From contig PMTR01000162.1 of NCBI GenBank assembly GCA_003167255.1, forward strand, positions 254 through 33,136: a stretch of DNA of 32,883 nucleotides, given 5' to 3'. Below are positions 3,651-29,417 of the stretch, in pieces (the stretch's first letter is position 1; the number at the start of each line of letters is the position of its first letter). The notes beneath the pieces were generated by a model, which had not been told where the DNA came from, searched no databases, and saw nothing but the letters and a program-made list of their open reading frames with translations. A program made the position numbers and the translations under genes. The stretch is from Bryobacterales bacterium. Its GTDB lineage: Bacteria; Acidobacteriota; Terriglobia; Bryobacterales; Bryobacteraceae.

Positions 3651-4447
<797 letters not shown>

Positions 4448-11743: not shown

Positions 11744-11842
11744 GGATTCAGGACCTTCGCACCGGATTATATCAGGTGGCATGCCGGTCGCAAGACCTGC
11801 TCGTTCTTCGCCACCACCGAGACGCGCGTGGGGTGTCGGCGG

Positions 11843-11974: not shown

Positions 11975-12281
11975 CTGCCTCCAACGGCACGGCTGAAGCC
12001 ATGCCCTGATACAAGGCATGAGCCTCGGCCTGGTCGACGCGCGGTGGGACCGGCAGGAACTCCGTACCGAAATATAGAAACTCCAGGGGCAGGCTTCAGC
12101 CTGCCAAACCCCGCGCGCGAAGCGCCCGTAGCCCGATCTTCTCACAGACATTCGGTGGTGACGCTGTGGCGCACGCACGAGTGCGCAGCCGGCCCCCAGG
12201 CCGGCTTGTCGTGAGTGACAGGCGCCTGATTCTTCGAGAGAAAAGCGGGACGAGGGCGTCCCGCGCGGACCAGGGGGTCCG
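11955..12281. repeat. Cluster of REP-like palindromes downstream of the RAYT remnant
   Basis: Perfect hairpins include GGGCTAAAGCCC near 11955-11966, GGCAGGCT-TC-AGCCTGCC at 12088-12105, AGCCGGCC-CCCA-GGCCGGCT at 12187-12206, GGGACG-AGGG-CGTCCC at 12247-12262 and CGGACC-AGGG-GGTCCG at 12266-12281. The last two share an AGGG loop and a similar stem design. Open reading through this stretch gives arginine/proline-rich peptide without domain character. Confidence 0.7.
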
Positions 12282-12364
12282 CCCTCCAACAATGCCGAAT
12301 CTCCAGCTTTGGAAAAACTAAGTGGCATTGCGCCACTTGATCGGGCCGGATGGTGTCGAGCGCC

Positions 12365-15300
12365 TTACTGAATTGGAATCAGAATAGGTGGGCTGGTCTG
12401 GCCGCCCGCGCTTATGGTGACCGGCACGCTGCTGCCCGTGGGAACACCGGCGGGGATCACGGCAGCCACCAGGTACAGACCTGGAAACTGCGGCGACAGG
12501 GACTGCGTTACCACAGCCGGCTGATTTCCGATCAGCACCTGGAGCGGGGCCACAGCGTGGGACCCCGCGGACCCGGGCAATCCGCCATCGGCTACCGGCG
12601 GACTCACGGCGCCCAGCCCCAGGCAATTGAGCACTATGGTGTCGCCGACGTGCGCCGGCGTGCTGGCGGATACCGTGTAGTAAGTGCCGTTCGGGTAATT
12701 GGCATAGTCCGTGACTCCGCCCAGGCGGTCCAGGATGGTGGGCTCGGCGGTCGCCACGTTGAAGGAGACCGGCTGGGACAGGATGGTGCCGCGCTGCACC
12801 AGAATCTGCTGGGGCGCGTTCAGACTGTTATTGGTGAGGGAATATGGGACCACCGCGTCCACCTGCGCGTCGCTGACGTAGTACAGCGGCAACGGCCTGA
12901 GGCCGATGAAGACCTGGGTGTCGACCAGCGTGGTCGCCAAGGGGAATCCGGACGTCCCCGAGGTTTCGGCCAGGCCCGAACCGTAGATGGAGATCACTTC
13001 GCCCGGCGCCAGGGAGACGAATTGGGCGCCGCCAAACACGCTGAAAACTCCCACCTCATCAAACAACGGGGGCGTCTGCGAAGCCAACGAACCACTGGTC
13101 TGCAGATCGCCCGAGATCCCGTTTGCATCCGCGGCATGGACCGCCAGATTCACGTAGGCCGAGGGATTATGCGTGTGCCAGGTGCCTTCCCAAAGTCCCC
13201 CTTGCAGAGGTGACAAGGTGGCTTGGGTATCGCCGTTGGAGAAGTCGACACTCACCGACCCGGACTGGAGTGGCATGCCGCAGTCATCTTTGACGAAGAC
13301 TCCGAGTTTGATGCCAAAGCCGGTGGAGCCGGTGAAGGCCTCGTCGGGCTCGGTAAGGATGGGCTGCAATTTGGTGGGAGTGCAGGCCGTCGTGCCGGGC
13401 GGGCCGCTGGCGCGGGCGCTGGTCCCGGGAATGCCGCCGGAAGATGTGCCGCCCGCCTTGGTCACGATCACCTTTACCGTTAACCGGCGGACGTTGCCGT
13501 CATCGAATTGCAAAGTCACGATACCTGTGTAGACTCCGGGCGCCAGCGAAGTAGTGAAGGGCTGCACCACGATGGGCATGGGATTCTGGGGATCGAGCGT
13601 GGCATCCCCAGGCAGAGTGACGATCGAAAGTCCGGAATCGGCGGACACCACCGAGCGAAACGTCTTGGCTTTGCCGCTGATGTTGTAGACCAGCACGTTC
13701 TGTGAACCGGGCGACGGCCCTCCGGCGGTGGCAGTGAACAGCAGCGATCCGGGCACGATGGCGGCTCCGGGATCGGAACCGGCTTTTTGCACCTGCAGGA
13801 CCACGGTGAGCACCTGGGGGCTGTTGGCGGCGTCGGGCGCGTCCACTTCCACCAGCCCATAGTAGGTTGTATCGCCCGCCAGCCCCGAGGGGTCCACGGA
13901 GACGGTGACGGTAGGCGGGCTCTGCGAGGGATCGGTGCTTCCGCCGGCGGAAGACACCTTGAGCCAAGCGGGAGTGGGGGTCGCGACGCCATTCACCGGA
14001 AATGGCGGGACAACCTTGGAGGCGAAGGTGACGGCTTTGGTGCCGATGTTGCGCACCGCGAAGGTCTGGGGAGGGACTACGCCGCCCTGGGCCACGCCGG
14101 TGAAAAGGAGGCCCCGCTGCGACAGCAGGATGGCCTGATCGGACGCGTTGACCGCGATAGTCACTGGGACGGAAAGGGGTGTCGCACCGGCGCCGACCGG
14201 CGTTACGCCGACCGTGCCGCTGAAAGTGCCGGGGCCGAGGCCCAGGGCGGCGGGATCGGCGGTCATGGTGAGGATGGCGGGAGAGCCCGGCGAGGCCTGT
14301 CCGGAGGTTTGGGAGAGCGTGAGCGGCTTGGCGCCCGCCGGGGTAGCGATGGTGGCGCTGGCGGTAAAGTTGAGGACGCCGCCGCCGCGGTTGGAGATGG
14401 TGAGCTTCTGACTCTGGGCGGGACTGGACTTGGCGAAAGAGAAGGAGAAGTTCTGGGGATCGAGCGGCGCCAGCGAGGGGGGCTGCGCCGCCGAAACCGA
14501 GAACGTCACCAGGATGGTGGTGACAGGCGGAATGGCGTTGGGGGCCAGAACGGTGATGGTGCCGCTGTACGTAATGTTGGTGCCGGTGGCCGGCAACCGC
14601 GATGGATCGGCGGTGACGTCGATCAGCCTGGGCGCCACGCCCGATTGCGGCGTGACCGCCAGCCAGTTGCCGCCCGAGGTGGTGCTCACCACGATAAAGA
14701 ACCCCAGTCCGGGAACGGAACCGCCCCCGGGAACCGAGCCACTGATGTTGAAACTTTGCGATTGCGTGGGAGCCCCGGTACTCTGTCCGGAGAAGGTCAG
14801 GCTGGAGGTCGAAACCTGTATCGCTGGCGGAGCCGCCAGCACCTCGCGAACGCGAAAGTTGCCGGTATCGGCGATGAGAACATTCCCAGCGGTGTCGGCG
14901 GCGAGACCCTGAATATTGTTAAACGTGGCGTTGATGGCGGGACCGCCGTCCCCGGAAAACCCGCTCACGCCGGCATTCCCCGCCAATTGGGAAATGGCGC
15001 CATTGGGAGCAATCATGTAAACCATGGGGTAGTAAACCGCGCCCCCTACACCAGGCGCCCCATAGGGCACGTAGACGTTTCCGGCTGCATCCACCGCGAC
15101 AGTGGTCGGCAGGTAAATGGATGCGTCGGTGGCTAAACCGCCATTCACGGGAGGCCCAATGGCTCCGTTGCCTGCGAAAGTGGTAACGGCGCCGGATGGC
15201 GACACTTCACGGACTCGGGAGTTACCAGCGTCGGCAATATAAAGGTTGCCTATGCCATCCAGCGCCAGACCATAGGGAGAGCTCAGGCAAGCGCCATTGC

Positions 15301-17140
15301 CGCCGCAGGATTTCGCGCTGCCGGCGTAAGTGGTTGCCACGCCGCTGGGAGTCACCTTTTGTACGGTACTGGATTGGGAATCGGAAAGATAGATATTGCC
15401 GGACGGGTCCACCGTCACACCCACCGCCTCGAATCCCTTCACTGGAGAGCTGATCGTGCCTTGCGGCGTTACTTCGCGGATCTCGCCATTCAGGGAGTCG
15501 CCGATGAAGAGATTGTTCAGTCTGTCGACGGCTAAGCTGGCGTAAAACAAGTAAAGAGAGGCTAAGTTTGCCTGCCCCCCGTCGCCTTGGCCGCCGGTGA
15601 TTCCATTCCCGGCGAGAGTTTTGATGATGCGCGGATTCCCGGGCGCCACCTCATAAACCCTGTCGTTACCCTCGTCCGCGATATATACATTGCCCACCGC
15701 GTCCGCGGCGACGGCTGACGGAAAATGGAACGTGGCGGAAGTGGAGGGCCCGCCATCGCCGGAAAAGCGGAACTGGCCGCTGCCGGCCGTTGTGTTGATG
15801 ATTCCCGCCGTGGTAATCGCGCGGATTACATAATTACCAGCGTCGGCGAAATATACATTTCCGGCTGTGTCGACGGCCAGGCCCGTGGGTGAGCTCAACA
15901 ACGCATTGCGCGCGGGCCCGCCATCGCCGGAGTAGCCCACGCCGGCGCTGCCGGCCAGGACGTGTATGATGCCGTCAGCCGTAACTTTACATATCATGTT
16001 AACGGACGAGATATAGAGATTATTCAGAGAATCGACGGCGACGCCCTCCGGTTCAAGTGGCGACCTGGTGGCGGCGGCTCCGTCGGACGCGTTGCCGCAA
16101 GTACGGCTGCCGGCTACGGCAATGAACACTCCGCCGGGAGGGACTTTGTAAACCCGGCAAGCGTCAGGGTCGGCGATATACACGTTGCCCAAGGAGTCGG
16201 CGGCCACCCCGGTAGGAAATTTGAGAGCGCCGTTGCCGGCGAGAGTGCTGATGATGCCGGCGGGCGTGATCTTGCGCACGCTGCTGTCTTTTTCACTTGG
16301 GTCGCAATCGCCGACATACACGTTGTTCAAATTGTCGACGGCCACGGCTAACGGCTGGATGAATGTGGCGAAGATAGCCTGCCCGCCGTCTCCGGTAATG
16401 CCAGATCCGCCGGAACCCGCTATGGTGTTGATGATTCCGTCCGTGGTGATCTCGCGGATGCGGAGATTGTTGGTATCGGCGACATAGATGTTGCCTGCGC
16501 TGTCCAGCGCAAGGGCATACGGACCGTCCAGCGATGCGTTGACTGCCGGGCCTCCATCTCCGGAGAACCCGGCGATCCCATTGCCGGCAACCGTGGTCAG
16601 GATTCCGGAGGGGGAAATCCGGAGGATCCGATTATTGCCCGGATCGGCAATGTAGTAGTTGCCGTTCTTGTCGACCGCGACGTCCAGGGGGTCGATCTGC
16701 GCTTGCGGCGCCGGTCTGCCGTCCCCGGTGAATACGAAATCGGCGCCGGCGAGTGTCGTCACGATCCTCTGCGGAGCTGGAGTTGTGGCGCTGCCGCCGA
16801 TCGATATCGAAAACGACCTTGGCGCGGAGCGATTGCCCGCCGTATCGCTCACCGCAACGTTGAACTGGAAAGGGCTCCCCGGAGCGAAAATGGGCGTGCC
16901 GCCAACCACTCCGGCGGCAGCGTCGAGCGTGAGGCCCGGCGGCAGGGATCCGCTGCTGACGGTCCAGTTGTAGGGCGGCACGCCACCGGTGGCTGCCAGG
17001 GTGGCTGTATACGGGCTGCCGACTGCTCCGCCGGCCAGCGACGCCGCGGTCACGGTCAACGGCGATACCGTCTGGCCGCCGGCTATGACTCCCATCGTCA
17101 AAAAGGAAAAGAGCCCCAATGCGACGGACGCGGTACGCAT
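12365..17140 (-). CDS. Giant secreted NHL-repeat protein with Solibacter C-terminal domain, copy 1 (1591 aa)
   Basis: A probable exported surface or extracellular protein. Residues 1-23 form a signal peptide. About 24-115 is a putative Ig (He_PIG) domain (LAATGGVPPYNWTVSSGSLPPGLTLD). About 125-770 holds many NHL repeats, each with a GDGGPA..A.L..P..vAvD..GN.YiAD..N.rIR pattern, expected to form beta-propellers. About 772-1215 contains three or four Ig/BACON-like modules (SLTFSGQ, GGNWLAVTPQSG). An Ig-like domain starts near 1251 (CTPTKLQPIL). The end, about 1368-1591, is the Soli_cterm domain (APGEVISIYGSGLA, YYVSDAQVDAVVPY, final SPPILIPIQ). I chose ATG at 17140 for its signal peptide; the open frame to 17281 reads through a TonB-receptor remnant. 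Ligand unknown. Confidence 0.88.
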   Translation of the reverse strand: MRTASVALGLFSFLTMGVIAGGQTVSPLTVTAASLAGGAVGSPYTATLAATGGVPPYNWTVSSGSLPPGLTLDAAAGVVGGTPIFAPGSPFQFNVAVSDTAGNRSAPRSFSISIGGSATTPAPQRIVTTLAGADFVFTGDGRPAPQAQIDPLDVAVDKNGNYYIADPGNNRILRISPSGILTTVAGNGIAGFSGDGGPAVNASLDGPYALALDSAGNIYVADTNNLRIREITTDGIINTIAGSGGSGITGDGGQAIFATFIQPLAVAVDNLNNVYVGDCDPSEKDSSVRKITPAGIISTLAGNGALKFPTGVAADSLGNVYIADPDACRVYKVPPGGVFIAVAGSRTCGNASDGAAATRSPLEPEGVAVDSLNNLYISSVNMICKVTADGIIHVLAGSAGVGYSGDGGPARNALLSSPTGLAVDTAGNVYFADAGNYVIRAITTAGIINTTAGSGQFRFSGDGGPSTSATFHFPSAVAADAVGNVYIADEGNDRVYEVAPGNPRIIKTLAGNGITGGQGDGGQANLASLYLFYASLAVDRLNNLFIGDSLNGEIREVTPQGTISSPVKGFEAVGVTVDPSGNIYLSDSQSSTVQKVTPSGVATTYAGSAKSCGGNGACLSSPYGLALDGIGNLYIADAGNSRVREVSPSGAVTTFAGNGAIGPPVNGGLATDASIYLPTTVAVDAAGNVYVPYGAPGVGGAVYYPMVYMIAPNGAISQLAGNAGVSGFSGDGGPAINATFNNIQGLAADTAGNVLIADTGNFRVREVLAAPPAIQVSTSSLTFSGQSTGAPTQSQSFNISGSVPGGGSVPGLGFFIVVSTTSGGNWLAVTPQSGVAPRLIDVTADPSRLPATGTNITYSGTITVLAPNAIPPVTTILVTFSVSAAQPPSLAPLDPQNFSFSFAKSSPAQSQKLTISNRGGGVLNFTASATIATPAGAKPLTLSQTSGQASPGSPAILTMTADPAALGLGPGTFSGTVGVTPVGAGATPLSVPVTIAVNASDQAILLSQRGLLFTGVAQGGVVPPQTFAVRNIGTKAVTFASKVVPPFPVNGVATPTPAWLKVSSAGGSTDPSQSPPTVTVSVDPSGLAGDTTYYGLVEVDAPDAANSPQVLTVVLQVQKAGSDPGAAIVPGSLLFTATAGGPSPGSQNVLVYNISGKAKTFRSVVSADSGLSIVTLPGDATLDPQNPMPIVVQPFTTSLAPGVYTGIVTLQFDDGNVRRLTVKVIVTKAGGTSSGGIPGTSARASGPPGTTACTPTKLQPILTEPDEAFTGSTGFGIKLGVFVKDDCGMPLQSGSVSVDFSNGDTQATLSPLQGGLWEGTWHTHNPSAYVNLAVHAADANGISGDLQTSGSLASQTPPLFDEVGVFSVFGGAQFVSLAPGEVISIYGSGLAETSGTSGFPLATTLVDTQVFIGLRPLPLYYVSDAQVDAVVPYSLTNNSLNAPQQILVQRGTILSQPVSFNVATAEPTILDRLGGVTDYANYPNGTYYTVSASTPAHVGDTIVLNCLGLGAVSPPVADGGLPGSAGSHAVAPLQVLIGNQPAVVTQSLSPQFPGLYLVAAVIPAGVPTGSSVPVTISAGGQTSPPILIPIQ

Positions 17141-17335
17141 CCATCGCGCACCGGTCCTTCCCGGGTAGCTCCGCCGCCTGTGCCTTCCGCCCCTTGCTGT
17201 CCCCACAGCCCCTCCTCGCAGAGTCTCAAATGTATCACTACCGCCGGCGTTCCCTCGTATTACTATTTTCGCCCCCACCATGAGTTGGTTCTGCCTTGCG
17301 GTTTCGGCTAGTCTAACACGAAAAGATAGAACGCC
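17141..17335. other. Gap between the two NHL genes
   Basis: This 195-nt spacer separates the stop of copy 2 from the start of copy 1. It contains the TonB-receptor tail remnant at 17260-17311. No terminator hairpin with a T-run is visible after copy 2, so read-through into copy 1 is possible. A GAAGGA at 17155-17160 (minus strand) is a poor, distant ribosome site for the start at 17140. Confidence 0.5.
17260..17311 (-). pseudogene. Remnant of the 3' end of a TonB-dependent receptor gene
   Basis: On the minus strand this stretch reads LAETARQNQLMVGAK, matching the end of the intact receptor at 21821-25069, LTETAREIQLMVRVKW. By hand alignment about 40 of 52 bases agree with 21821-21871, including CCTTGCGGTTTC and CACCATGAG on the plus strand, with one indel. 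It lies directly upstream of NHL copy 1, where a receptor gene would be expected if the array were built from receptor/NHL units. The stop codon is lost by the indel. Confidence 0.7.
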
Positions 17336-20300
17336 CTACTGAATCGGGATCAGAATAGGTGGGCTGGTCTGGCCGCTCAGGCTGATGGTGACCGGTACGC
17401 TGTTGCCCTTAGTTACACCGGCCGGGATCACGGCATTCACCTGGTAGAGGCCTGGGTATTGCGGCGACAGCGCTTGAGCTACCACGGCCGGCTGGTTTCC
17501 GATCAGCACCTGGACCGCGGCAACAGCCTGGGACCCCGCGGCCGTGGGCAAGCCTCCATCGGCTACCGGCGGCGTCACCGCGCCCAGCCCCAGGCAGTAC
17601 AGCACGAGGGTGTCGCCGGCATGCGCGGGGCTGGTGGCCGAGACAATGTACGGCGAGCCCCCGCTGGCCGGATATGAGGTGACCGCGTTGCCGCCGCTAT
17701 AGATGGTGGGCTCGGCGGTCGCCACGTTGACGTAGACCGGCTGCGAAAGCGTGTTGCCGCGCTGCACCACAATCTGCAGGGGCGCGTTGAGGCTGTTATT
17801 GGCGAGGGAATACGGGACCACCGCGTTCACCTGCGTGTCGCTGACGTAATACAGCGGCAAGGGTCTGAGGCCGATGAAAACCTGGGTGTCCACCAGCGTG
17901 GCCGATAGGGGCGCGGGCGGCGCCGCCAGCGCGGTCTCGGCCAGGCCCGAGCCGTAGATCGAAATCACTTCGCCCGGCGCCAGCGGCGCAAACGTGGCGC
18001 CGCCAAACACGCTGATAATCCCCGCGTCTTCAAACGCCGGGGGCGTCTGCGAGGCCAGCGTCCCGTTGGTCTGCAGGTCACCCGAGGTCCCTTGAGGATT
18101 CGTCGCGTGCACTATCAGGTTCACGCTGGCCGAGGGATTGTGCGTGTTCCACGTGCCTTCCCAGAGTCCCCCTTGCAGAGGTTGCAGCGTGGAGGTGGTA
18201 TCGCCGTTGGAGAAACTGACCGTGACGGAGCCGGATTGCAGCGGGTTGCCGCAGTCATCTTTGACGAAGACTCCGAGCTTGATGCCAAAGCCGGTGGCGC
18301 CGGTGAAGGCATCGTTGGGCGCGGTCAGAATGGGCTGCAATTTGGTGGGCGTGCAAGCCGTTGCGTCGGCTGGGCCGCCGGCGCGCGCGTTGCTCCCGGG
18401 AATTCCGCCGGAAGAGGCCCCGGCCGAATTGGTCACGATCACCTTGACCGTCAAGCGGACGACTCGGCCGTCGTCGAACTGCAAAGTCACGACGCCGGTG
18501 TAGACTCCCGGACCGAGCCCGGAGGTGAAGGGCTGCACCACGATGGGTGTGGGATTCTGGGGATCGAGCGTGGCATCCGTCGGAAGGGTTACCAGAGTAA
18601 GTCCGGGGTCGGCGGACACCACCGAGCGAAAGCTCTTGGCGTTGGCGGTGATGTTGTACGCGAGCACATTCTGCGAGCCAGGCGACGACGCCCCGGCCGC
18701 AGCGGTGAACAGCATCGATCCGGGCGTGAGCGCGGCTCCGGTGTTGGCGCCGGCTGGCAGCAACTGCAAGACCACCGTCAGCACCTGCGGGCTGTTAGCC
18801 GCGTTGGGTGCGTCCACTTCCACCAGACCGTAGTAGGTTCCGGCCACCGACAGCTTGGATGGGTCCACGGTGACTGTGACGGCGGGAGGACTCTGTGCGG
18901 CATCGGTATTTCCGCTGGTGGGAGAGACGCTGAACCAGGCGGGCGTAGCGGGGATCGGGATCGCTTTCGCCGTCCAGGCGACGACTCCGGTGCCGATGTT
19001 GAGCACGGCGAAGGTCTGCGGAGGGATGACGCCGCCCTGGGCCACGGCGGTGAAAAAGAGCCCGCGCTGCGACAGCAGGATGGCCTGACTGCTCGCACTG
19101 ACCGTGATGGTCACGGGCACGGATAGAGTGGTTGAGCCGGCGGCGGATATGACGATCGTGCCGGTGAACGTGCCGACGCCGAGGCCGGTAGGATCGGCCG
19201 TCACGGTCAGGATGGCGGGAGAACTGGGCGTGGCCTGTCCGGAGGTTTGCGAGAGCGTGAGCCACTTGGCTCCTGTCGGGGTAGTGATAGTGGCGGCGGC
19301 GGTGAAACTGACGGTGCCACCGCCGGAATTGGAGATGGTCAGCCGCTGGCTTAGGGCGGGAGTGGATTTGGCGAACGAAAAGGAGAGTCTCTGGGGATCG
19401 GACACTAAAAAGGCAGGCAGCGCGGGCGAGACTTGGAACGTCACCTTGACAGTACTTATGGGCGGGCTGGCGTTCGGCGTGGCAATCGTGATGGTGCCCT
19501 GGTAGGTGCCCGGCGAGGTCAGAGTGGAAGGGTCGGCCACCACGTTGATCAGTCTCGGCGCCGCCCCGCTCTGCGGCGTGACGGACAACCAGTTGCCGCC
19601 CGTCGCCGTCGTTACCGTGAGTGAGAACGCCAAGCCGGGCACGGACGCGATGCTGAAGCTTTGCGTGGGCGCGGGAGCACCGGTAGCTTGCCCGCTGAAG
19701 TTGAGATTCGCGGCCGACACCTGCACCGCGGGTGGGATTGCGAGCACCTCGCGGATGCGGTTGTTGCCGGTGTCCGCGATAAAGAGATTACCCAACCCGT
19801 CCACTGCCACCGCCGTAGGTGACAAGAGTTGGGCGGCAACCGCAGGCCCGCCGTCTCCCGCGTAGCCCGCAATCACCCCGCCGGCAATGGTCGTGATGGC
19901 GCCATCGGGAGCTATTTTCAGAACCGCATCTTCCCCCACCGCCCCGCCCCCTCCGGCCATGTAGAGGTTTCCGGCCTGGTCGGTTGTGAGGCCCGCCCGG
20001 CTGAAGCGGCTTTCGAGCACTGTCCTGGTTCCATCCGGAGCGATTCGAACCACCTGGTTCCCAGCCAACGTGCTCCCCAGGCCGGAACGATCCGCGACGA
20101 AGAGATTGCCCGACGGGTCCACGGCCACGCCGTAAGGACAGGAAAACCCTCCGATCATGTCCGTAACGGTCCCGGCGCCGAGAGCGATTTTCAATACCTT
20201 TCGCACCACAGGGTCTGGATCCGCGGCGTAGAGATTGCCGGATGAGTCAAGAGCCAAACCCGCGGGCCCCGCGTATCCCAGAAAGCAATAGGAGTCGCCG

Positions 20301-21655
20301 GCGGTGTTCGCGCCCGCCCGAACCAGAGTGGAGATTCTGTTGTCGGGACCGATCTTGCGAACGCGATTATTACCGGCATCCGCGACGAAGAGCGATCCGT
20401 CGGCGGCAGCGGCCAACCCATCGGGCAGAAAGATGGAGGCTTGGAGCGGAGGACCTCCATCTCCCGCGAACGTCGGATTCCCATCACCGGCGATGGTTGT
20501 AATGATCCCCGCGGAATTTACTTTCCGCACGCGGTTATTTCCAGTGTCGGCGATGAGGAGATTACCAGTTGAATCCACCGCCAGGCCGGCCGGCCCGTTC
20601 AAGGCGGCGCTGATTGCGGGGCTATTCTCCCCGGCAAAACCATACCTCCCGTTGCCTGCCACCGTGGTAATCGTGCCGCCGGAAGAGACCACCCGAAGCC
20701 TGCCATTTCCTCCGTCGGCGATATAAATCGCTCCATGCGCGTCGATCGCCAGGGCGGAGGGACCGTTGAGCTCCGCACTCGCCGCTTTTCCTCCATCTCC
20801 CGAAAAACCGGCTTGGTCTACTCCAGCGATGCGCGTGACCGTGCCGTCCGGCGCGATCTTGTCCACAATATCGCTGGTGGTCGCAAAGAGAGATCCGCTG
20901 CCGTTGTCTGTAAAGCTGCCGGCGGAAACATAGACATCGCCGGCCGCGTCGGCGGCCAAGCCGAAGCATAGCGAATCCGTGGAAGTCAGCTTGGTGGTTT
21001 GCCCTCCCGGAGTGACCTTAAAGACACCCTGATAAACAGCGCTACAAACATACAGGTTGCCGGCTGGATCGAGCGCCACTCCGCCGTAGGAGAGCCCCGC
21101 GGGCGTAGTCACGATGCCGTCAGGCGTGATCTTATTCACGGTTCCGCCGTCTCCCTGAACGAAGAGATTTCCGGCGCCATCGACGGCCACTGAGAAAGGG
21201 AAGTTCAATGTGCTGGTGCCGCCCCGGACCACCGTCGAAATAATTCCGTCGGGAGTCATTTTCCGCACACAGTTATTGCCGTTGTCCGCGATATATAGAT
21301 TGCCGTGGGAGTCGAAGGCGAGCCCGAAAGGCCCATTGAGCGCGGCATTGGCCGCCGGGCCGCCGTCTCCCGAGTAACCCTTCGTTCCGTTACCCGCCAC
21401 TACGGTCAAGGTTCCTTGAAGATCGATTTTCAGTACCAAAGACGTCGCCGGGTCCGAAACGTACACGCTGCCGCCCGAGTCAATCGCAATACCGTAGGGA
21501 AGGCCCAGCGGCGCGTTGACGGCTGGCATCGGAGAGCTTGGGAAGACAAAATCCGTCCCCGCGACTGTTGTGATGACTCCCTGTGGGAAGCAAATCGGGG
21601 CGCAAGATAGCCACAGCAAAACGCATCCCATGCGCGGCAGACGGCTGTTTCTCAT
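17336..21655 (-). CDS. Giant secreted NHL-repeat protein with Solibacter C-terminal domain, copy 2 (1439 aa)
   Basis: A paralogue of the neighbouring gene. A signal peptide (MRNSRLPRMGCVLLW to about residue 25) is followed directly by NHL repeats from about 26 to 640 (GYSGDGGPAANAALNGPFGLAFD, LYIADNGNNCVRKM); the N-terminal Ig domain of copy 1 is missing. Ig/BACON-like modules follow from about 643 (NLNFSGQATG), then the CTPTKLQPIL domain near 1098, and the Soli_cterm domain at about 1215-1439 (APGEVISIYGSGLAETA, final SPPILIPIQ). From the BACON region onward the two proteins are nearly superimposable and the DNA is also highly similar. ATG at 21655 is preferred over the TTG at 21667. It lies downstream of a TonB receptor gene on the same strand. 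Confidence 0.88.
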   Translation of the reverse strand: MRNSRLPRMGCVLLWLSCAPICFPQGVITTVAGTDFVFPSSPMPAVNAPLGLPYGIAIDSGGSVYVSDPATSLVLKIDLQGTLTVVAGNGTKGYSGDGGPAANAALNGPFGLAFDSHGNLYIADNGNNCVRKMTPDGIISTVVRGGTSTLNFPFSVAVDGAGNLFVQGDGGTVNKITPDGIVTTPAGLSYGGVALDPAGNLYVCSAVYQGVFKVTPGGQTTKLTSTDSLCFGLAADAAGDVYVSAGSFTDNGSGSLFATTSDIVDKIAPDGTVTRIAGVDQAGFSGDGGKAASAELNGPSALAIDAHGAIYIADGGNGRLRVVSSGGTITTVAGNGRYGFAGENSPAISAALNGPAGLAVDSTGNLLIADTGNNRVRKVNSAGIITTIAGDGNPTFAGDGGPPLQASIFLPDGLAAAADGSLFVADAGNNRVRKIGPDNRISTLVRAGANTAGDSYCFLGYAGPAGLALDSSGNLYAADPDPVVRKVLKIALGAGTVTDMIGGFSCPYGVAVDPSGNLFVADRSGLGSTLAGNQVVRIAPDGTRTVLESRFSRAGLTTDQAGNLYMAGGGGAVGEDAVLKIAPDGAITTIAGGVIAGYAGDGGPAVAAQLLSPTAVAVDGLGNLFIADTGNNRIREVLAIPPAVQVSAANLNFSGQATGAPAPTQSFSIASVPGLAFSLTVTTATGGNWLSVTPQSGAAPRLINVVADPSTLTSPGTYQGTITIATPNASPPISTVKVTFQVSPALPAFLVSDPQRLSFSFAKSTPALSQRLTISNSGGGTVSFTAAATITTPTGAKWLTLSQTSGQATPSSPAILTVTADPTGLGVGTFTGTIVISAAGSTTLSVPVTITVSASSQAILLSQRGLFFTAVAQGGVIPPQTFAVLNIGTGVVAWTAKAIPIPATPAWFSVSPTSGNTDAAQSPPAVTVTVDPSKLSVAGTYYGLVEVDAPNAANSPQVLTVVLQLLPAGANTGAALTPGSMLFTAAAGASSPGSQNVLAYNITANAKSFRSVVSADPGLTLVTLPTDATLDPQNPTPIVVQPFTSGLGPGVYTGVVTLQFDDGRVVRLTVKVIVTNSAGASSGGIPGSNARAGGPADATACTPTKLQPILTAPNDAFTGATGFGIKLGVFVKDDCGNPLQSGSVTVSFSNGDTTSTLQPLQGGLWEGTWNTHNPSASVNLIVHATNPQGTSGDLQTNGTLASQTPPAFEDAGIISVFGGATFAPLAPGEVISIYGSGLAETALAAPPAPLSATLVDTQVFIGLRPLPLYYVSDTQVNAVVPYSLANNSLNAPLQIVVQRGNTLSQPVYVNVATAEPTIYSGGNAVTSYPASGGSPYIVSATSPAHAGDTLVLYCLGLGAVTPPVADGGLPTAAGSQAVAAVQVLIGNQPAVVAQALSPQYPGLYQVNAVIPAGVTKGNSVPVTISLSGQTSPPILIPIQ

Positions 21656-21820
21656 TTTCGGGCTCAACGTATTCTATCGTGAACTGGCACACTTTGACGG
21701 GCGCGATCCACGCAGGGTTCGAACGCCCTACTGAATCAGGATCAGAATCGGTGGACTCGGTCTGGCCGCCCAGGCTGATGGCGACGGTATACTGTTGCCC
21801 TTGGTCACACCGGCGGAGCA
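21656..21820. other. Gap between TonB receptor and NHL copy 2
   Basis: A 165-nt spacer. It contains an NHL-gene tail remnant (21721-21815) next to the receptor stop, then about 65 nt before NHL copy 2. A weak -10-like TAGAAT lies about 20 nt upstream of the copy 2 start on the minus strand, without a convincing -35 element. Confidence 0.5.
21721..21815 (-). pseudogene. Third copy of an NHL/Soli_cterm gene 3' tail (remnant)
   Basis: These ~95 bases match the 3' end of NHL copy 2 (17329-17424), including 17 identical bases spanning the stop codon (GAACGCCCTACTGAATC, plus strand). On the minus strand they read AGVTKGNSIP, then shift frame to the ISLGGQT segment, against AGVTKGNSVPVTISLSGQTS in copy 2. 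The match continues past the stop into the 3' flank. Only the last ~28 codons survive, immediately downstream of the TonB receptor stop, so the body of a third paralogue was lost at this junction. Confidence 0.85.
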
Positions 21821-24800
21821 TTACCATTTCACTCTCACCATGAGCTGTATCTCCCTTGCGGTTTCAGTTAGCGGGATCAGGCCGGGAAAGCCCGACTGCT
21901 CCGGTTTTCGGCCGTACAAAGCCACTCCAAAGTCGGACGTGCCGGCGGCTAACGCTTGAGGGGTGGGGATAGTGGAATCGGGATTGCCCAGGTTGGCGTG
22001 GTTCAGCGCGTTGAAGAAATCGGCGCGCAACTCGATGCGGCCGGCTTCGCCCAGCTTGCGCACGGCGATGGACCGGCTGACGGAGAGATCGGCATTGTAT
22101 AGTCCCGGGCCGGTAATCGCGTTTCTCCCGGTGTTGCCGAGCGGCGTAGACGGGGAAGGGTCGGCGAAAGCGGCGGGCGATAACAACAGCCTGCCGCCAA
22201 AGCCGGGCGCCGGCTGATTGGTGAACTCTTGCGCCTGGTTGACCAGGTTGCCGCGACGGTTGATGATGCCGGTGGCGACGGTGCTCGCGTAGATGGAATA
22301 GGGAAAGCCGGTGCGGAACGCGGCCAATCCGGAGAGCTTCCAGTCGCGTAAGGGAGCCCAGGCCCGGGACGAGCCGCGCGGGTTGGGAATAGCGGCGGTC
22401 CCCATCAGAACCAGGTTCTGGCGCTGATCGAAATCGGAGTTGCCGCGATCGACGCGAAGGTCGCCGACCCTGGAGAACGCGGCTCGTGGCTGAGACCCGG
22501 CGCCGGCGGTGAGACTGGCGAACGACAGGTCGAAGAAATCGCCGGCCAGCAGCGAACTCTGGTTGTCGATGCTGTGGCTCCAGGTATACGCGGCCTGGAA
22601 CTGCACGCCGGACGTGTGGTAGCGCGCGAGCGCAGTGAGCGCGCTGTAGTTGGAGGAGCCCTGGTTGGCGATGTAGGAAATATCGGGCAGGGATTGTTTG
22701 GTGCTCGACCCGCGGTTCAGGACATCGGTCGAGATCAGGCGCCGGCCGAGCGTTTCCAGGCCGTTCACTTCCAGGGTGACGCTGCGGGCGAGCGACTGTT
22801 GCACGCCGAGGAACGAACTCCAGACGTAGGCGTTGCGGATGCGGGCGTCAATCCAGGTGAGAGGCGGGAAAGTGGGGTCCACGCTCTGCCCGGCGAATTG
22901 CGGCAGCGTCTGCGCCGCCGTCGCCAGGTAGTTGGCGGTGGGAGTCGAGATGAAGAAGTCGCCCAGCGAAGAGTTATTGTTGCTGACATTCCGCCAGAGA
23001 TTGTCGTACGGCCGATCGTAGAAGATGCCCGATCCGCCACGCAGAAGCGTGCCTCCATTGGCGGTGAGAGCGTACGACGCACCCAGGCGGCCGGCCCATC
23101 CGCGATTGTCGCCGGCATAGATCGGCTGGCCGGCGGCTTCCGGCGCCAGCCGGGCGCCGGTGATTTCGGCTCCTGGGGGGCCGGGCTGCAGCAGGAGATC
23201 CTTGACCGCGCCGGTGCCCCGCGGAGCGCCGAAGTTTTCGTAGCGCAAACCGTAGTTGAGCGTAAGGCGGGGCGTGGCGCGGTAGGTATCCTGCGCGAAG
23301 AAGTGGAACTGGTTGTAAGTATATTGCCGGTCGAACGAAGGGATCTGTAGCCTGGGCAGCGCGGTGCGGTCCACCGAAGCCGAAAAACCGTATGGCGCGG
23401 ACTGGGCAAATTGCAGGACGGTTTCGAACACGAATTCGCCATCGCGGCCGAATGTGAGGTAGCCATCGATCGAGCGCAGCAGCACGCCGCCGCCCAGTTT
23501 CACCAGGTGTGGTCCGCGCGACCAGACGAACTGGTCGGTGAATTCGAAGGTGCGGCTGCGGTTCTTGTAGGCGTAGGCGGACAGGCTTCCGGGCAGCAGT
23601 ACGCCACCGTCCGTGGCAAGGGTGGCGATCTCCGGGTGGGCGCGGTCCCAGGAAAGATCGTCGTCGCTCCAGCTCACGCGCGCTTCGTTGACGCGGCGCG
23701 GCCCCATATTGCTGGTGAGCGCGGCCATCATCGAGAAAGTGTTCTGGAGGAGCGGCGAATCGAAGCCCTGGTAGGGCGACCAGATGAACTGCGGCCGCTC
23801 CACGCGCGCGGAGGCCACGCGGCCCATCAGGTGATGAACGCCGCCGGCGGGCGTGTAATCCAGCCGCTCCAGGAACAGCGACCGGTTGACGAAGCTGGGC
23901 AACGATACGGGCACGGAGTCACTCAGCGCCGTCGAAATCGGCGCGGCCCAGGGATGGGATTGCAGCAGGTTCAGGGCGGCCGACGCCGCGGGCCCGGTAA
24001 CCGGGTCGCTCTTCAGGCCGGCCAGGTAATTGACGAATCCGGTGGTGGGCAATTGAACCGTGACGGGATCCCCGTAGCCGCGGCTGCGGAAGTATTCGAA
24101 GGACGTGGAAGTGAACAGGCGATTCGCGCGGATCGGGCCGCCCGCCTGGAATCCCGGCTGCGTCTCGTGGAGCGGGGAACGCCGCAGGCCCGTGCGGTTC
24201 CGCTGGAAGTCGTTGGCATTGAGGGCGTCGTTCTTGGCGTAGACGTACCCCAGCCCGTGCCACTGGGTTCCCCCGGCTCGCGTCACCGCGTTGGCCAGAA
24301 CGCCGGCGGTGCCGCCGTACTCCGCGCTGAAGCTGTTGGTGGAGATGCGATATTCCTGGATGGCTTCGGGCGCCGCGGTCACCAGCGGGCCGGTGACCAG
24401 GTAGTTGTTGTTCTCCACGCCGTCCAACAGGAAGTTGGATGACGTGGGTCTTTGGCCGTTCACGGAAAGTCCCAGGCCGCCGGACGAAGCCGTGTCCGCG
24501 GTGACGCCAGGCTGCATGATCAAGGTGGTGTAGATGTCGCGCCCGGCGAGCGGCAGTTCCTGGATCTGCTGCGGATCCACCACCTGCGACACCGAAGCTT
24601 CGAGCGACCCGCTGGCGGCGCGCGACGGCTCCACGGTGCGGCTGCGGCTGGTATCCACATCGGGGCCATAGAAATTCACGATGGCCTGGCTGCCCGGAAA
24701 AAAGACGCTGCGATACTCTCCGGTCTCCCAGACGTCGTTCAAGGGCCGCAGTTGGAACGAAAAATCCAGCCGTCCGGCCACCCGCACTTCCACGCCGTAC

Positions 24801-25069
24801 AGTTCCTGGGCCTGGTACCCGGCGGCGGAGACCTGCAACCGGTAGGTGGCGGGCGAGAGCAGCGGCACCACGAAGTAACCGGCGGCGTCCGTGTGCACCA
24901 GGTGGCTGGAATCGCTGGACGAGCCCAGGCACTGGACGGACGCCTGCGCCGGCGGCTTGCCGGATATCGAATCGACGATGCGGCCGGAAATCATGCCTTG
25001 CGTGGTCTGGCCGAACGCGGACGCGATGGCGCCGGCCAGGCAAGCCGCGAACAGTAAGGTCCGCCTCAT
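21821..25069 (-). CDS. TonB-dependent receptor with carboxypeptidase-regulatory domain (1082 aa)
   Basis: A full-length Oar-type outer membrane receptor. Signal peptide residues 1-21 end AFGQ. The carboxypeptidase-regulatory-like domain covers about 24-105 (ISGRIVDSISGKPPAQASVQCLG). The plug (about 160-280) shows PLAGRDIYTTLIMQPGV, NGQRPTSSNFLLDGVENNNYL and EYGGTAGVLANAVTRAGG. A long barrel region follows, and the protein ends RVKW with the terminal aromatic residue expected of an outer-membrane barrel. Its ATG overlaps the stop of the caspase/TPR gene (ATGA at 25066-25069), so the two are translated together. A fossil copy of its last codons lies at 17260-17311. Substrate unknown; this receptor class is often linked to polymers or large ligands. 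Confidence 0.92.
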   Translation of the reverse strand: MRRTLLFAACLAGAIASAFGQTTQGMISGRIVDSISGKPPAQASVQCLGSSSDSSHLVHTDAAGYFVVPLLSPATYRLQVSAAGYQAQELYGVEVRVAGRLDFSFQLRPLNDVWETGEYRSVFFPGSQAIVNFYGPDVDTSRSRTVEPSRAASGSLEASVSQVVDPQQIQELPLAGRDIYTTLIMQPGVTADTASSGGLGLSVNGQRPTSSNFLLDGVENNNYLVTGPLVTAAPEAIQEYRISTNSFSAEYGGTAGVLANAVTRAGGTQWHGLGYVYAKNDALNANDFQRNRTGLRRSPLHETQPGFQAGGPIRANRLFTSTSFEYFRSRGYGDPVTVQLPTTGFVNYLAGLKSDPVTGPAASAALNLLQSHPWAAPISTALSDSVPVSLPSFVNRSLFLERLDYTPAGGVHHLMGRVASARVERPQFIWSPYQGFDSPLLQNTFSMMAALTSNMGPRRVNEARVSWSDDDLSWDRAHPEIATLATDGGVLLPGSLSAYAYKNRSRTFEFTDQFVWSRGPHLVKLGGGVLLRSIDGYLTFGRDGEFVFETVLQFAQSAPYGFSASVDRTALPRLQIPSFDRQYTYNQFHFFAQDTYRATPRLTLNYGLRYENFGAPRGTGAVKDLLLQPGPPGAEITGARLAPEAAGQPIYAGDNRGWAGRLGASYALTANGGTLLRGGSGIFYDRPYDNLWRNVSNNNSSLGDFFISTPTANYLATAAQTLPQFAGQSVDPTFPPLTWIDARIRNAYVWSSFLGVQQSLARSVTLEVNGLETLGRRLISTDVLNRGSSTKQSLPDISYIANQGSSNYSALTALARYHTSGVQFQAAYTWSHSIDNQSSLLAGDFFDLSFASLTAGAGSQPRAAFSRVGDLRVDRGNSDFDQRQNLVLMGTAAIPNPRGSSRAWAPLRDWKLSGLAAFRTGFPYSIYASTVATGIINRRGNLVNQAQEFTNQPAPGFGGRLLLSPAAFADPSPSTPLGNTGRNAITGPGLYNADLSVSRSIAVRKLGEAGRIELRADFFNALNHANLGNPDSTIPTPQALAAGTSDFGVALYGRKPEQSGFPGLIPLTETAREIQLMVRVKW

Positions 25070-27957
25070 TGATTTCCGCTTCCCAGTTTGCCGAGCGCCG
25101 CATGCATGCGTTTGCGCGCGGCCCCATCGGGCGCGGACTGTAAGGCTTTTTCGTACGCGGACCTGGCTTCGGCGTTGCGGCCCAGAGCGGCGTAGGCCTG
25201 GGCGGCTTGCTCCAGGATCCCCGGGTCGCCGGGCTGCAACTCGAGGGCGTGTTGCAACTGGGTGACCGCAGCGTCCGGCTTGCCAATTTGCATATCCACA
25301 CCCGCCAGCGCGGTGCGTGCGGCCACGTAGTCCGGGCGCGCGGCGACTACCTTCTCGTATTCATGAGCCGCTTCGTCGTTGCGGCCCGCGGCGGCCAATG
25401 CAAGAGCCAGGCTGAGCCGCGACGGCAGATGGGCCGGATCTCGCGCGAGGTTGTCCCGCCACAGGGCGAGCGCTTCGGCGAGACGTTTGGCATCGGCGGC
25501 CAGCAGCACTGCCAGATTGTGGCGCGCGGCCAGGAGCGCGGGATCGCGGTCCAGTGCCTGCTTGTAGAACTGCTCGGCTTCCGCTCGCCGGCCGGCGGCG
25601 GCTTTGAGCGATCCCAGGGCGTTGAGCGCCTGGGAATTGCCGGGTTCGATCGCGAGGGCTTGTCGATACATGGACTGGGCGTCCGCCGGACGGTTCATGC
25701 GCTGATAGAGCAGGCCCAGGTTGTAAGGCAGGTAGGCGGCGCGCGGCGCCAGCCGCATGGCTCGCTGATAGACCTTGATGGCGTTGTCGTAATCGCCCTT
25801 CTCGGTGTAGGCCAGCGCCATGTTGTGCAGCGGGTAGGCCCAGTACGGCGCCCGCCGCGAAGCGTCACGGAAAGCCGCAATCGCCAGATCGTAGTTGGCG
25901 CGCTCCAGATAGGCAATGCCCAGCCCGTTGTAAGCATAGGCGCGCTCGCCGTCGAGACCGATGGCCCGTTCCAGCAGGGCCGCGGCGCGCGCATAGTCTT
26001 TCTCGAAGATGGCCGCGCGCCCCTCGCAAAACGTCATGCGGCTCTGGAGATAGAGGGAATCGGGCGCCAGGGGTAGCGCCGCCTCGAAATAGGCCGCGCC
26101 GCGAAGGAAATCGACCCGCCGCTGCGGCACGCGGTCCCCGGCGAGATAGGCCAGCAGCACTTCCTGGCCGCGATCTTCCAGAGCAACGCGGAGTTTCTCG
26201 GCTTCGCGTTGGTAGTCGTCGGACTTAAGCTGCGACTTGAGGGCGGCCAGAAACGTGAAGGCGCCCAGATCTTCCGTATTCAGGATGCGTCCTTCCGCAA
26301 TCGCCTTCTCGAATTGATCCAGCGTTGTGGCTCTGTCCTGATACTTGAGCCTGCTGAGCGTGGAAGGGGGCGCCGGAACGGCCGAGGGCGCCCGTGGGGC
26401 CGGGGCGGTGAGGCTGCGGCTGGCAGTCAGCACAAGCCTGGTGTAATCCTTCAGCTCGATGCCCGGCCTGTCCATCCGCGCCATCACGCGTGTCTCGTCG
26501 ATATCCCCGATGGTTTTCGGAATCTGGCGGCTGGCGGTGGACTCCTGAACCTGTTCCGTCACATAGTCCCTCAGCTCATCCATGGTGACTTTGCCGTCGC
26601 CGTTCAGGTCGGCGCGGCCATCCAGCGCGCTGATCAGGAAGTAGGTGAATGCGCCGTGCCCGCCGCCATAATTGAAGCCCTCGATAGCGACCTGGTCTTT
26701 CTGCGCGGCCAGCATTCCGAACATGTCCACGTCCGTTGGATTGATCGCGCCCGCGGCCTTATTGGTTTTGCTGGCATCCGGTTCGATTTGCCCAATATGC
26801 CCCGCATGGCAGACGTCGACAAACAACAGCAGCCGTTTTACGTTACCCAACTGGCTGGAGAAGAGTTGGCGGATATCGTCCATGGGGATTCCGCTGGTGG
26901 CCAGGTCTTCCGAATTGCTGTCGTACGTGACGATGAAGCCTTTGCTCGAGTTGCCCACGGGAAAACTCGCGCCATGCGAAGCGATGAAGAGCAACACGGT
27001 ATCCTTCGGGCCGGCACGCTTTTTGAGATGAGTTTCGATGGCGTTTTGAATGGCGCTGCGCGTGGCCGCCTGGTTGGTCAGCACCACGATGTTGTCGTCC
27101 GGAATCGCTCCGGCACGAGGGCTCTTCAGCAGGTTATCCAACTCAATGGCATCCCGGTCCGCAAAGTTCAGCGGGTTGATGTTCTTATCCTGGAAACTGG
27201 AGATGCCCACCAGCAGCGCATACGTCTGGCCTTCCTCCTCCCGCTGCGGGACCGCCACTCCCCGGCTCTTCGCGGCGCCCTCTACCAGCAGGAACAAGCG
27301 GCTGTGCGCCCACCCGGCGTCCGGCCATGCGGCCACCACCTTCCGCATCTCCTCGGCGGCATCGGCATTGAGCCCATACTTTTCGAAGACCCAGGCGCGA
27401 GCCAGGTGGTTGACCGGGTAGTTGAGGTTGGCCGCTTTGTCCAAGGCGGCGAGTTCGGAGGTCGCCTGAGCGCGCCGCCCGGCGGGCAGTTGAAGAAGAC
27501 GTTCCTCCAGCGTTTGCGGACCGGCTTCAGTTGATTGTCCCTGCGCCACCGCGGCGCCGGCATGTTGCTGGCTGGCGATCACGAAGCGAGGAAGCGGCGG
27601 AAGAAAGCAGCCCGCCGCGGGTTTCTGATCCGCGAACTTGCCTGCCCGGAGTTTCACCCCGCGCGGTTCAAAGAGCGCGTCGCCATCGGGCGAGAGCGTC
27701 TGCTGGGTATTGCCGCCGCACGCCAGAAAGTTGACCGAGCCGCCTTCCGACCGCAGAGCGTCGCCGGAGAACAGGATGTCCCCCGGTTTGGCGTTCAACG
27801 GCAAGTCGGATCCGGCACGCACGATCTTGGCTCCACTCCCCGCCAAGATCAGGGCGAGGGGCGCTTCCGCGGCTTCCTGGGCGGCGGCCGCAAAACTGCA
27901 CACAAGCAGCAGCAGAGCCACGGATATGCGTGCTGAAATGCTCAACACACTGCCCAT
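25066..27957 (-). CDS. FecR-like / caspase (C14) / TPR fusion protein (963 aa)
   Basis: A secreted or periplasmic protein with a caspase-fold cysteine protease. Signal peptide about 1-27 (ISVALLLLVCSFAAAAQ). About 35-120 resembles a FecR domain (KPGDILFSGDALRSEGGSVNFL). The caspase domain covers about 245-500: TYALLVGISSFQD, catalytic His328 in FIASHGAS and Cys383 in FVDVCHAG. Within it a canonical EF-hand loop runs Asp450-Glu461 (DLNGDGKVTMDE). After a linker rich in Ala/Pro, TPR repeats fill about 640-960 (YNGLGIAYLERANYDLAIAAFRDA). The catalytic dyad is intact, so it is probably active, perhaps calcium-dependent. It is the first gene of a unit with the overlapping TonB receptor. Target and trigger unknown. 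Confidence 0.92.
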   Translation of the reverse strand: MGSVLSISARISVALLLLVCSFAAAAQEAAEAPLALILAGSGAKIVRAGSDLPLNAKPGDILFSGDALRSEGGSVNFLACGGNTQQTLSPDGDALFEPRGVKLRAGKFADQKPAAGCFLPPLPRFVIASQQHAGAAVAQGQSTEAGPQTLEERLLQLPAGRRAQATSELAALDKAANLNYPVNHLARAWVFEKYGLNADAAEEMRKVVAAWPDAGWAHSRLFLLVEGAAKSRGVAVPQREEEGQTYALLVGISSFQDKNINPLNFADRDAIELDNLLKSPRAGAIPDDNIVVLTNQAATRSAIQNAIETHLKKRAGPKDTVLLFIASHGASFPVGNSSKGFIVTYDSNSEDLATSGIPMDDIRQLFSSQLGNVKRLLLFVDVCHAGHIGQIEPDASKTNKAAGAINPTDVDMFGMLAAQKDQVAIEGFNYGGGHGAFTYFLISALDGRADLNGDGKVTMDELRDYVTEQVQESTASRQIPKTIGDIDETRVMARMDRPGIELKDYTRLVLTASRSLTAPAPRAPSAVPAPPSTLSRLKYQDRATTLDQFEKAIAEGRILNTEDLGAFTFLAALKSQLKSDDYQREAEKLRVALEDRGQEVLLAYLAGDRVPQRRVDFLRGAAYFEAALPLAPDSLYLQSRMTFCEGRAAIFEKDYARAAALLERAIGLDGERAYAYNGLGIAYLERANYDLAIAAFRDASRRAPYWAYPLHNMALAYTEKGDYDNAIKVYQRAMRLAPRAAYLPYNLGLLYQRMNRPADAQSMYRQALAIEPGNSQALNALGSLKAAAGRRAEAEQFYKQALDRDPALLAARHNLAVLLAADAKRLAEALALWRDNLARDPAHLPSRLSLALALAAAGRNDEAAHEYEKVVAARPDYVAARTALAGVDMQIGKPDAAVTQLQHALELQPGDPGILEQAAQAYAALGRNAEARSAYEKALQSAPDGAARKRMHAALGKLGSGNQ

Positions 27958-27995: not shown

Positions 27996-28023
27996 AGTAT
28001 ACTGGTTTCCGGACGATTCGCAA
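27996..28023 (-). promoter_or_regulatory. Sigma70-type promoter of the caspase/TonB unit
   Basis: On the minus strand TTGCGA (28023-28018) is followed by 16 nt and TATACT (28001-27996), a four-of-six -35 and five-of-six -10 match. Transcription would start near 27989, giving a leader of about 30 nt to the ATG at 27957. The insertion sequence begins 17 nt upstream of the -35, so the core promoter survives while any upstream activator site is now separated by 1.9 kb. Confidence 0.5.
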
Positions 28024-28231: not shown

Positions 28232-29417
28232 TCAACCGGTGTCGAAAGATGGTTTGGATAGGCTGAGCCAAAGGACGCGACATAATTGGTCAGCCGATAG
28301 AACCCGGTGGGTGCCACGATGCAGATAGCGGATTCGGTAGAGCCGTTCGATGACGAGGACCAACAGGACGAGCAGCCAGCCGATCAGAATGCTGTTGGGA
28401 TGGTGATGACAGATGTGCTCCAATCCGTAGCGGTTCTTGGCATCATTGAAGCCTTGATTTTCGATTTCCCAACGGCTTTTGGCGAGGTGATACAGCGAGA
28501 GGCTGCCGACGCGGCGTGAGGGCAAGTTGGTCAGCCACTGGGCCTCGACAATGGTCTTATCCGGTTTGTGTTGGCGATAGCGGATGACGCGAACACGGTC
28601 CCAACGCAACGTCTCCCAAGGGGCGAAGTCGTCCGCATCCCAGACCTCCAGGCGGTCTTTGCCATCGCGATAGACTCTGGTCGGCGGACAAGTAGCGAAG
28701 CGCCGTTCGACGGATTGAGAAAGTTCCGGGAGGTTGTCCTTGAGGCGAGCGATTACAGGAATGCCGGCGCGGTCTGCGGCGTGCAGAAAGGGAGCCGTAG
28801 CGTACTCGCCATCGACCACCAGGTAATCGGCAAAGCGGGCGCCCAACTGGCTCCGGGCGCGGGCGAGCAGGCGCTGACCGGCGGCATACTCGCTGTCGCC
28901 GGGGCCGTAGGGTTCGACGTCGAAGGGAAGCGACAGGCCGGTTCCGACGACGCTGATGCTGGCCATCTGGTGGGAGTAAGCGATCACTTCTTTGTTGGCG
29001 TTGTGCTGCGGCCTGCAATACTCGCAACCTCGGTGAGTGCTGTGTCCAGCGGTGGTGCCATCGATGGCCAGACCAACCAACCGCGAATCCTGGAAGGCTT
29101 TGTTGCGCTTGGCACGGTGGAGCGTGCCGATCAAGGCGGCTCGCGTAACTGCCTGGTCCAGGCGTTCGGTGAAGTAGCCCAGGGCGTCATCGCCAAAAGA
29201 CTGCGGCACGCACAAAGCGCGGCAACCCGAGCGCACCAACTGTTCTACGGCATGGAAGCTGACCTCCCGCAGCAGACGGGATCAACATGGACCACAACAG
29301 CGTGCGAGCGGCAATCCGCGGTTGCGGCCGGCCATCGCCCGGCTGCTGCAAGTATTTCAGCAATCCGAGACACTTGGCCGCATAGCGGAACAGGCTGTGC
29401 GGCGAGGGCGATTTCAC
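28232..29417 (-). pseudogene. DDE transposase, disrupted by a frameshift
   Basis: The N-terminal part is in one frame (29417 to about 29280; FRYAAKCLGLLKYLQQ, then TLLWSMLI) and the rest in another (RLLREVSFHAVEQLVRSG to the stop at 28232). The change falls near 29277-29283, at CCCGTCTGCTG on the minus strand: removing one base (or adding two) restores LI-RLLREV. The second part has the catalytic signature: Asp in GLAIDGTTAG, Asp in DYLVVDGEYATA, and Glu in SRWEIENQGFNDAK. The joined product would be about 395 aa, normal for such transposases. The first ORF overlaps DUF6788 by ATGA. I see no slippery run, so a real mutation or a sequence error is likelier than programmed frameshifting. Confidence 0.85.

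Follow-up and report, generated by a model that had tools for sequence, protein, structure and literature searches.

Most TonB-dependent receptors that have been studied are importers, and bacterial caspases, which occur in defence contexts, are usually discussed as intracellular death or defence enzymes. In the FecA-FecR-FecI system a TonB-dependent receptor is paired with an exported partner, and the output is formed by an anti-sigma factor and a sigma factor. A partnership with a protease has been published for Oar of Myxococcus xanthus, which is required for the secretion of PopC (PMC6434023). In Burkholderia, according to the passages of the article used here, an exported LysM-FecR protein is encoded together with a CHASE2 histidine kinase (PMC5192318). 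A survey of prokaryotic caspases gave OmpA, transporters, Lactamase B and sigma factors as operon partners in the sections cited here, trmE as the neighbour of the Xanthomonas-type metacaspases in Xanthomonas, Xylella and Stenotrophomonas, and a CHASE2-metacaspase fusion in Trichodesmium; the word "TonB" is absent from its main text (PMC3501461). CHASE2 has further been described, in an article likewise used in part, as a variable part of the second component encoded beside TRADD-N proteins (PMC8195603). Among the matches listed in a search of the open literature (subscription papers lay outside it), no description was found of a module joining a TonB-dependent receptor to a caspase, with or without a CHASE2 cyclase.

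The locus described here is from a Bryobacterales bacterium and lies in a stretch of 32,883 nucleotides, the whole of which is referred to as the window. Its features are as follows.

25066-27957, minus strand: caspase-TPR protein of 963 aa (reading frame, Pfam, AlphaFold model)
21821-25069, minus strand: Oar-type TonB-dependent receptor of 1082 aa (reading frame, Pfam)
17336-21667, minus strand: large NHL-repeat/BACON/Soli_cterm protein, the first downstream of the receptor (Pfam, NCBIfam)
12365-17281, minus strand: second NHL-repeat protein, 1638 aa, resembling the first (Pfam)
28232-29239, minus strand: DDE_Tnp_1 transposase gene, immediately upstream of the caspase gene (Pfam)
27996-28023, minus strand: weak sigma-70-like promoter match (9/12) ahead of the caspase gene (motif scan)

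The initial annotation had both reading frames right, in coordinates as well as in strand, and it had noticed that the two genes overlap: the ATGA at 25066-25069 contains the stop codon of the caspase gene and the start codon of the receptor gene, a 4-base overlap. The giant proteins that it saw downstream carry NHL repeats according to Pfam (17336-21667 and 12365-17281), and the C-terminal end of the first of these is a Soli_cterm domain in the NCBIfam scan of that protein. The transposase gene at 28232-29239 occupies the side of the caspase gene where some relatives have a CHASE2 cyclase gene. Shuffled sequences gave 1.8 sigma-70-like matches on average and the region itself two, so that the match at 27996-28023 alone is no evidence for a promoter.

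From its N-terminus the caspase protein consists of a hydrophobic segment (the signal), a beta domain (residues ~35-113), a helical part, a Peptidase_C14 domain (residues 246-481; 63.3 bits against a Pfam cut-off of 21.4) and a superhelix of many TPRs (residues ~540-960). Because of the signal peptide, the caspase is predicted to be located outside the cytoplasm. The AlphaFold model (mean pLDDT 81.7, 16 sequences) has the caspase-hemoglobinase fold, with residues 244-497 matching Arabidopsis metacaspase 4 (Z 24.2, rmsd 2.5, 218 aligned residues); the search with the whole model was dominated by TPR chains, and the caspase fold emerged only on a second look. At the sequence level, the profile matched the solved yeast-type metacaspase-1 (E 1.8e-6). 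His328, Asp381 and Cys383 were invariant in all 22 aligned caspase domains, and His328 and Cys383 were also unchanged in the 16 rows of a smaller alignment. Given the invariant catalytic His and Cys in 22/22 domains, caspase activity is expected. Asp381, two residues before the Cys, is at the metacaspase position which we take to be associated with cleavage after basic residues.

Two parts of the first description of this protein were not confirmed. The N-terminal part had been called FecR, but six family members gave no Pfam match to FecR up to E = 10. The model of the N-terminal domain had no PDB match at E <= 0.001, the best weak fold match being the C-terminal domain of MtxA (E 0.016), and a sub-threshold match to DUF7354 was present in five of the six members. 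The FecR identity is thus unconfirmed. The EF hand was rejected as a defining feature, as the EF-hand_5 match was sub-threshold (18.6 bits versus a cut-off of 25.9) and the stretch concerned was missing from the caspases of some relatives in the alignment.

A C14 domain followed by TPRs is shared with the Xanthomonas-type metacaspases, proteins of near 100 kDa that were also reported from two Acidobacteria; in the sections cited here these carry a polysaccharide deacetylase domain (PMC3501461), whereas PF01522 was absent from the caspase protein in the Pfam search at E <= 0.001. The caspase fold is common to metacaspases (metacaspase 4, Z 24.2), legumains and MALT1, from which the present protein differs by its signal peptide, its fusion to TPRs and its linkage to a receptor. 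No subtilisin family was among its Pfam matches at E <= 0.001.

In the receptor, Pfam recognised a CarboxypepD_reg domain (residues 27-107), a Plug domain (161-255) and an OMP_b-brl_4 barrel (262-1044). The three families (PF13620, PF07715 and PF25183) were all above cut-off and together form an Oar-type architecture, with the barrel assigned to PF25183 where the published definition has PF00593. A TIVTF-like stretch ahead of the plug is conserved in the core clade of these receptors and may correspond to a TonB box. The linker that joins the carboxypeptidase-regulatory domain to the plug does not support the cleavage site for which a search had been suggested: 24 aligned receptors have no invariant Arg or Lys there. 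The SR of the GPDVDxSRS stretch is common in the core clade, with H, Y or none in relatives.

The locus resembles FecA-FecR-FecI in that a TonB-dependent receptor has an exported partner. It differs in that the partner has no Pfam match to FecR, that the STN domain (PF07660) is absent from the Pfam matches of the receptor at E <= 0.001, and that a protease, together with a cyclase in some relatives, takes the place of the anti-sigma and sigma factors. There is also a likeness to Oar-PopC, in which a receptor with a CarboxypepD_reg extension and a plug is functionally tied to one extracytoplasmic protease. In the passages of that report used here, PopC is a subtilisin without signal peptide, whereas the protease of the present locus is a C14 protein with a signal peptide and TPRs (PMC6434023). 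Moreover, the caspase gene is here coupled to the receptor gene, with a CHASE2 cyclase gene joining them in some relatives, and the likeness to Oar is one of architecture.

The initial annotation had proposed a search for the same gene pair in acidobacterial relatives. The pair is indeed conserved and co-inherited, so that the refuting condition named there, a pair kept by none of the relatives, did not apply, and it is part of a wider module in some of these relatives. In a survey of 200 genomes of the class (match at E <= 1e-120, three candidates scored per genome), the receptor type was present in at least 21. The caspase subfamily (residues 1-500, E <= 1e-45; class sample of 200, apparently the identical genomes to judge from its positives and listed negatives) was found in 15, all of which belonged to the 21 receptor-positive genomes. 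The hypergeometric p for this overlap is 3.7e-18 if the genomes are treated as one sample of independent genomes, which they are not. The caspase gene was within approximately 7 kb of the receptor gene in 14 of the 15 caspase-positive genomes, G165 being the exception. For G024 the count relies on two contig ends, each bearing one part of the caspase; in G086 caspase and receptor are separated by the cyclase gene and a further large gene.

When a caspase profile was applied to the receptor contexts, a C14 domain was present within approximately 7 kb in 16 of the 21 receptor genomes (G000, G024, G041, G062, G069, G074, G076, G086, G090, G106, G134, G169, G176, G207, G223 and G227), with two linked loci each in G000 and G041. 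Five genomes had no nearby caspase. In G165 caspase and receptor are 47 kb apart on one contig, with the cyclase gene at the caspase; in G045 a caspase was not found in the fetched stretches; and in G049, G126 and G211 a contig end adjoins the receptor. The set of 23 linked loci used below comprises the window, locus C62 of its genome, 16 others from the 21 genomes, G025 (with only part of the receptor, at the end of a contig), L185, L187, L190 and L194. A phylum-wide sample, in which the best two candidates per genome were scored, yielded the receptor type in at least 2 of 297 genomes; these two, G000 and G024, were already known, and we attach little weight to absence elsewhere. The subfamily caspase also occurs without this receptor type. 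It stands alone in G074 (contig C2), adjoins a different receptor in G207 (contig C113), and in G023, where the cyclase is present, the only receptor is a different one at 8.5 kb.

Both families are expanded in the genome of the window, with 10 Pfam C14 matches plus two more places found by protein search and approximately 130 first-look candidates for TonB-dependent receptors. Where receptors, caspases and NHL proteins are this numerous, the two genes might be neighbours by chance, their overlap being a matter of compact packing. Control loci speak against this. Relatives of another receptor of the window (P0007) are present in 91 of the 200 genomes, and no C14 domain was found at the 20 P0007-type loci fetched from these. 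With the receptor alignment as query, named public genomes yielded 78 loci from the best 80 matches: 15 of the present receptor type (L180-L194) and 63 other receptors. None of the 63 was accompanied by a C14 domain or the module cyclase, which brings the count of caspases at control receptor loci to 0/83. The 15 loci of the present type had a C14 domain in seven cases (L184, L188 and L189 look, by their length, like contigs already counted), and at two others the module cyclase stands at the contig edge; six had neither caspase nor cyclase, and two of these six, L181 and L191, come from a single genome and have complete flanks. Starting from the caspases, nine others in the genome of the window stood in fetched contexts that contained no receptor, some of these contexts being cut short by a nearby contig end; the tenth (C62:9039) lies beside the second module locus of that genome and was excluded from the nine.

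The trees of receptor and caspase for 23 pairs, including the unlinked pair of G165 and the two-contig pair of G024, were highly correlated (Mantel r 0.953, a value reached in 0 of 2000 permutations), much of which could be due to shared species history. More telling is that duplicate pairs stay together. In both trees the C62 pair, which is the second one in the window's genome, is sister to one of the two pairs from G041, a member of another family (SH-aLRT 97 and 99); this grouping involves long branches. The other pair of G041 groups with G062 and G076, again in both trees (100 and 100). On the receptor tree with 24 labelled loci, the order changed between divergent and codirectional at least 6 times, the orientation of L182 and L183 being taken from the cyclase as their caspase lies beyond the contig end. 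As the pair is still adjacent after these changes, its adjacency has outlived rearrangement. At the six loci where the caspase gene directly precedes the receptor gene, a receptor start always overlaps or touches the caspase stop: in four the overlap is of 4 bases, in one the start lies on the last base of the stop, and in one it comes immediately behind the stop. Two of these six loci are from near-identical relatives and two more are close, and three of the four 4-base overlaps have an alternative second start 15 or 18 bases further. With control loci, rearrangements and duplicates all against it, the idea of a chance neighbourhood is already contradicted, and we find it hardly credible. At one of the G041 loci (L099, G041:C62, 7929-18393), the genes for caspase, NHL protein and receptor follow each other in this order with overlapping ends.

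Gene linkage, the signal peptides and the type of receptor, in which large ligands are moved or their presence is transmitted, therefore favour a module that would cut in the periplasm. We give an even chance to the reading that a secreted, metacaspase-like TPR protease and a dedicated Oar-type receptor form an envelope module that is inherited as a unit and, in a minority of cases, stands behind a CHASE2 cyclase. At the outer membrane the receptor would move or sense a single protein or peptide, and the TPR part would dock this putative cargo, or the receptor itself, in the periplasm. The caspase domain would then cut the cargo or a partner there, probably on the C-terminal side of Arg or Lys. 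At the loci that have it, the CHASE2 cyclase may serve as an optional reporter of the periplasmic outcome, sending a signal inwards by a cyclic nucleotide. The suggestion of an envelope system in the initial annotation gains support from the class of the receptor, from the signal peptides and from the CHASE2 cyclase that some relatives encode next to the caspase; regulated proteolysis tied to ligand uptake or sensing, as had also been proposed, remains a putative function.

The cyclase could not be seen in the initial annotation because it is absent from the window. A gene with CHASE2 and a class III cyclase domain (Guanylate_cyc in Pfam) is located upstream of the caspase gene at 9 of the 23 linked loci (G024, G074, G086, G106, G134, G176, G207, L190 and G227); the window and 13 other linked loci are without it. 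It also precedes the caspase gene in G023 and G165, and in L182 and L183 it adjoins the receptor gene where the contig ends. The frames of cyclase and caspase overlap in G023, G024, G086, G106, G134, G176 and G207. In G227 (L088, G227:C3, 9606-15185) CHASE2 cyclase and caspase-TPR protein are joined in one frame in which the mid hydrophobic segment is kept, a fusion that may be an assembly error rather than natural. Two CHASE2 matches are present elsewhere in the genome of the window; their regions contained no match to the module cyclase at E <= 1e-12, and this genome seems to lack it. The arrangement recalls the Burkholderia operon, in which the gene of an exported partner also lies beside that of a CHASE2 membrane sensor; there the output is a histidine kinase, and neither a caspase nor a receptor is named in the passages used here (PMC5192318).

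A bolder and more doubtful interpretation, which we hold only tentatively, is that the loci encode a hitherto undescribed form of trans-envelope proteolytic signalling in Acidobacteriota. Engagement of the receptor would lead to a cut by the periplasmic caspase, the CHASE2 cyclase would respond to that same event and the signal would reach the cytoplasm, many lineages, including that of the window, having kept the receptor-caspase core only. At the other extreme, the receptor may import a peptide or protein that the caspase merely digests as a nutrient, with no signalling involved. Import is what most studied receptors of this kind do, and a genome with approximately 130 first-look candidates is rich in them. 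A digestive protease would be unusual, in our judgement, in having an invariant pocket Asp and TPRs, and it would hardly explain why its gene is coupled to that of a CHASE2 cyclase at 9/23 linked loci; we consider nutrient acquisition improbable.

Other genes recur around the pair. In G106, G134, G165, G176 and G207 (loci L086, L087, L089, L090 and L126) the next gene after the caspase encodes a protein of Lactamase_B_2 fold, conceivably a cyclic-nucleotide phosphodiesterase. Ser/Thr kinase genes were present near the receptor at several module loci; as these were also found at controls L172, L177, L208, L211, L224, L227, L232 and L239, the kinase was rejected as a part of the module. Related NHL-type proteins were encoded at 11 distinct loci of this receptor type (the window, L049, L084, L089, L090, L095, L097, L099, L102, L128 and L191); the 83 control loci had none at the thresholds applied. 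TIGR03437 matches were present in 92 of the 200 class genomes, among them all 21 receptor-positive genomes, and many other genomes with at least 13 such matches had no subfamily caspase at the threshold used. A role of the caspase as maturation enzyme for Soli_cterm proteins, considered by analogy with sorting proteases, was rejected as a general role.

The recurrence of large secreted NHL-type proteins beside the receptor also bears on a different view of the transport direction. The receptor could be an export channel, either for the caspase, which would leave via Sec and act at the surface or outside, or for a protein matured by it. This has to be taken seriously because Oar of Myxococcus is required for the secretion of PopC, a published case, in the passages used here, of a TonB-dependent receptor needed for protease secretion (PMC6434023). 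The Oar-type domain architecture of the present receptor and its tie to one protease subfamily fit such a channel. However, the PopC described in the same passages is a subtilisin without recognisable signal peptide, unlike the caspase (PMC6434023); a 963-aa protein with a long TPR superhelix would be a bulky cargo; and the direction of transport is not visible in sequence. We regard export as possible but unlikely, and prefer the envelope module in which the caspase would act in the periplasm.

Since bacterial caspases are known from defence contexts, a function in cell death or against phages was also considered, in which the receptor would be the entry site of a phage or bacteriocin and its engagement would cause the caspase to kill the cell. 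A PADLOC scan of both proteins returned a generic caspase profile for the caspase (3.8e-21), in addition to weak PrimPol and TPR matches, and nothing for the receptor. In one relative (L047, G013:C392, 3-3688), on a short contig and without this receptor, the caspase-TPR gene overlaps a TIR-domain gene by 4 bases. Against such a role, the signal peptide leads one to expect the caspase outside the cytoplasm, the inheritance is duplicated and looks largely vertical, and a search of the plasmid collection found no match (E <= 1e-30). A death or anti-phage system is thus very unlikely, and the periplasmic envelope module remains the reading that we prefer.

The module may be built of known families in a new combination, with a mechanism that is proposed here. 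A secreted caspase and one receptor constitute a defined gene pair with which the roles of these proteases outside the cytoplasm can be addressed. They also raise the question whether TonB-dependent receptors team up with dedicated proteases more widely than in Oar-PopC, and they provide a putative partner for one receptor type among the very many of soil Acidobacteriota.

Some further genes of the window deserve mention. A second receptor gene, shorter than the first (4478-6964), is preceded at a distance of 38 bases by a PAS-histidine kinase-receiver gene (7003-8547, minus strand), and the two are possibly another sensor-receptor pair. The NHL proteins are followed by an M16 peptidase gene (8867-12328, minus strand), the frame of which begins approximately 190 residues before a likely signal peptide. 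Two frames for glycosyltransferases and one gene for a prepilin peptidase (A24) are arranged consecutively at 2020-4447 on the plus strand.
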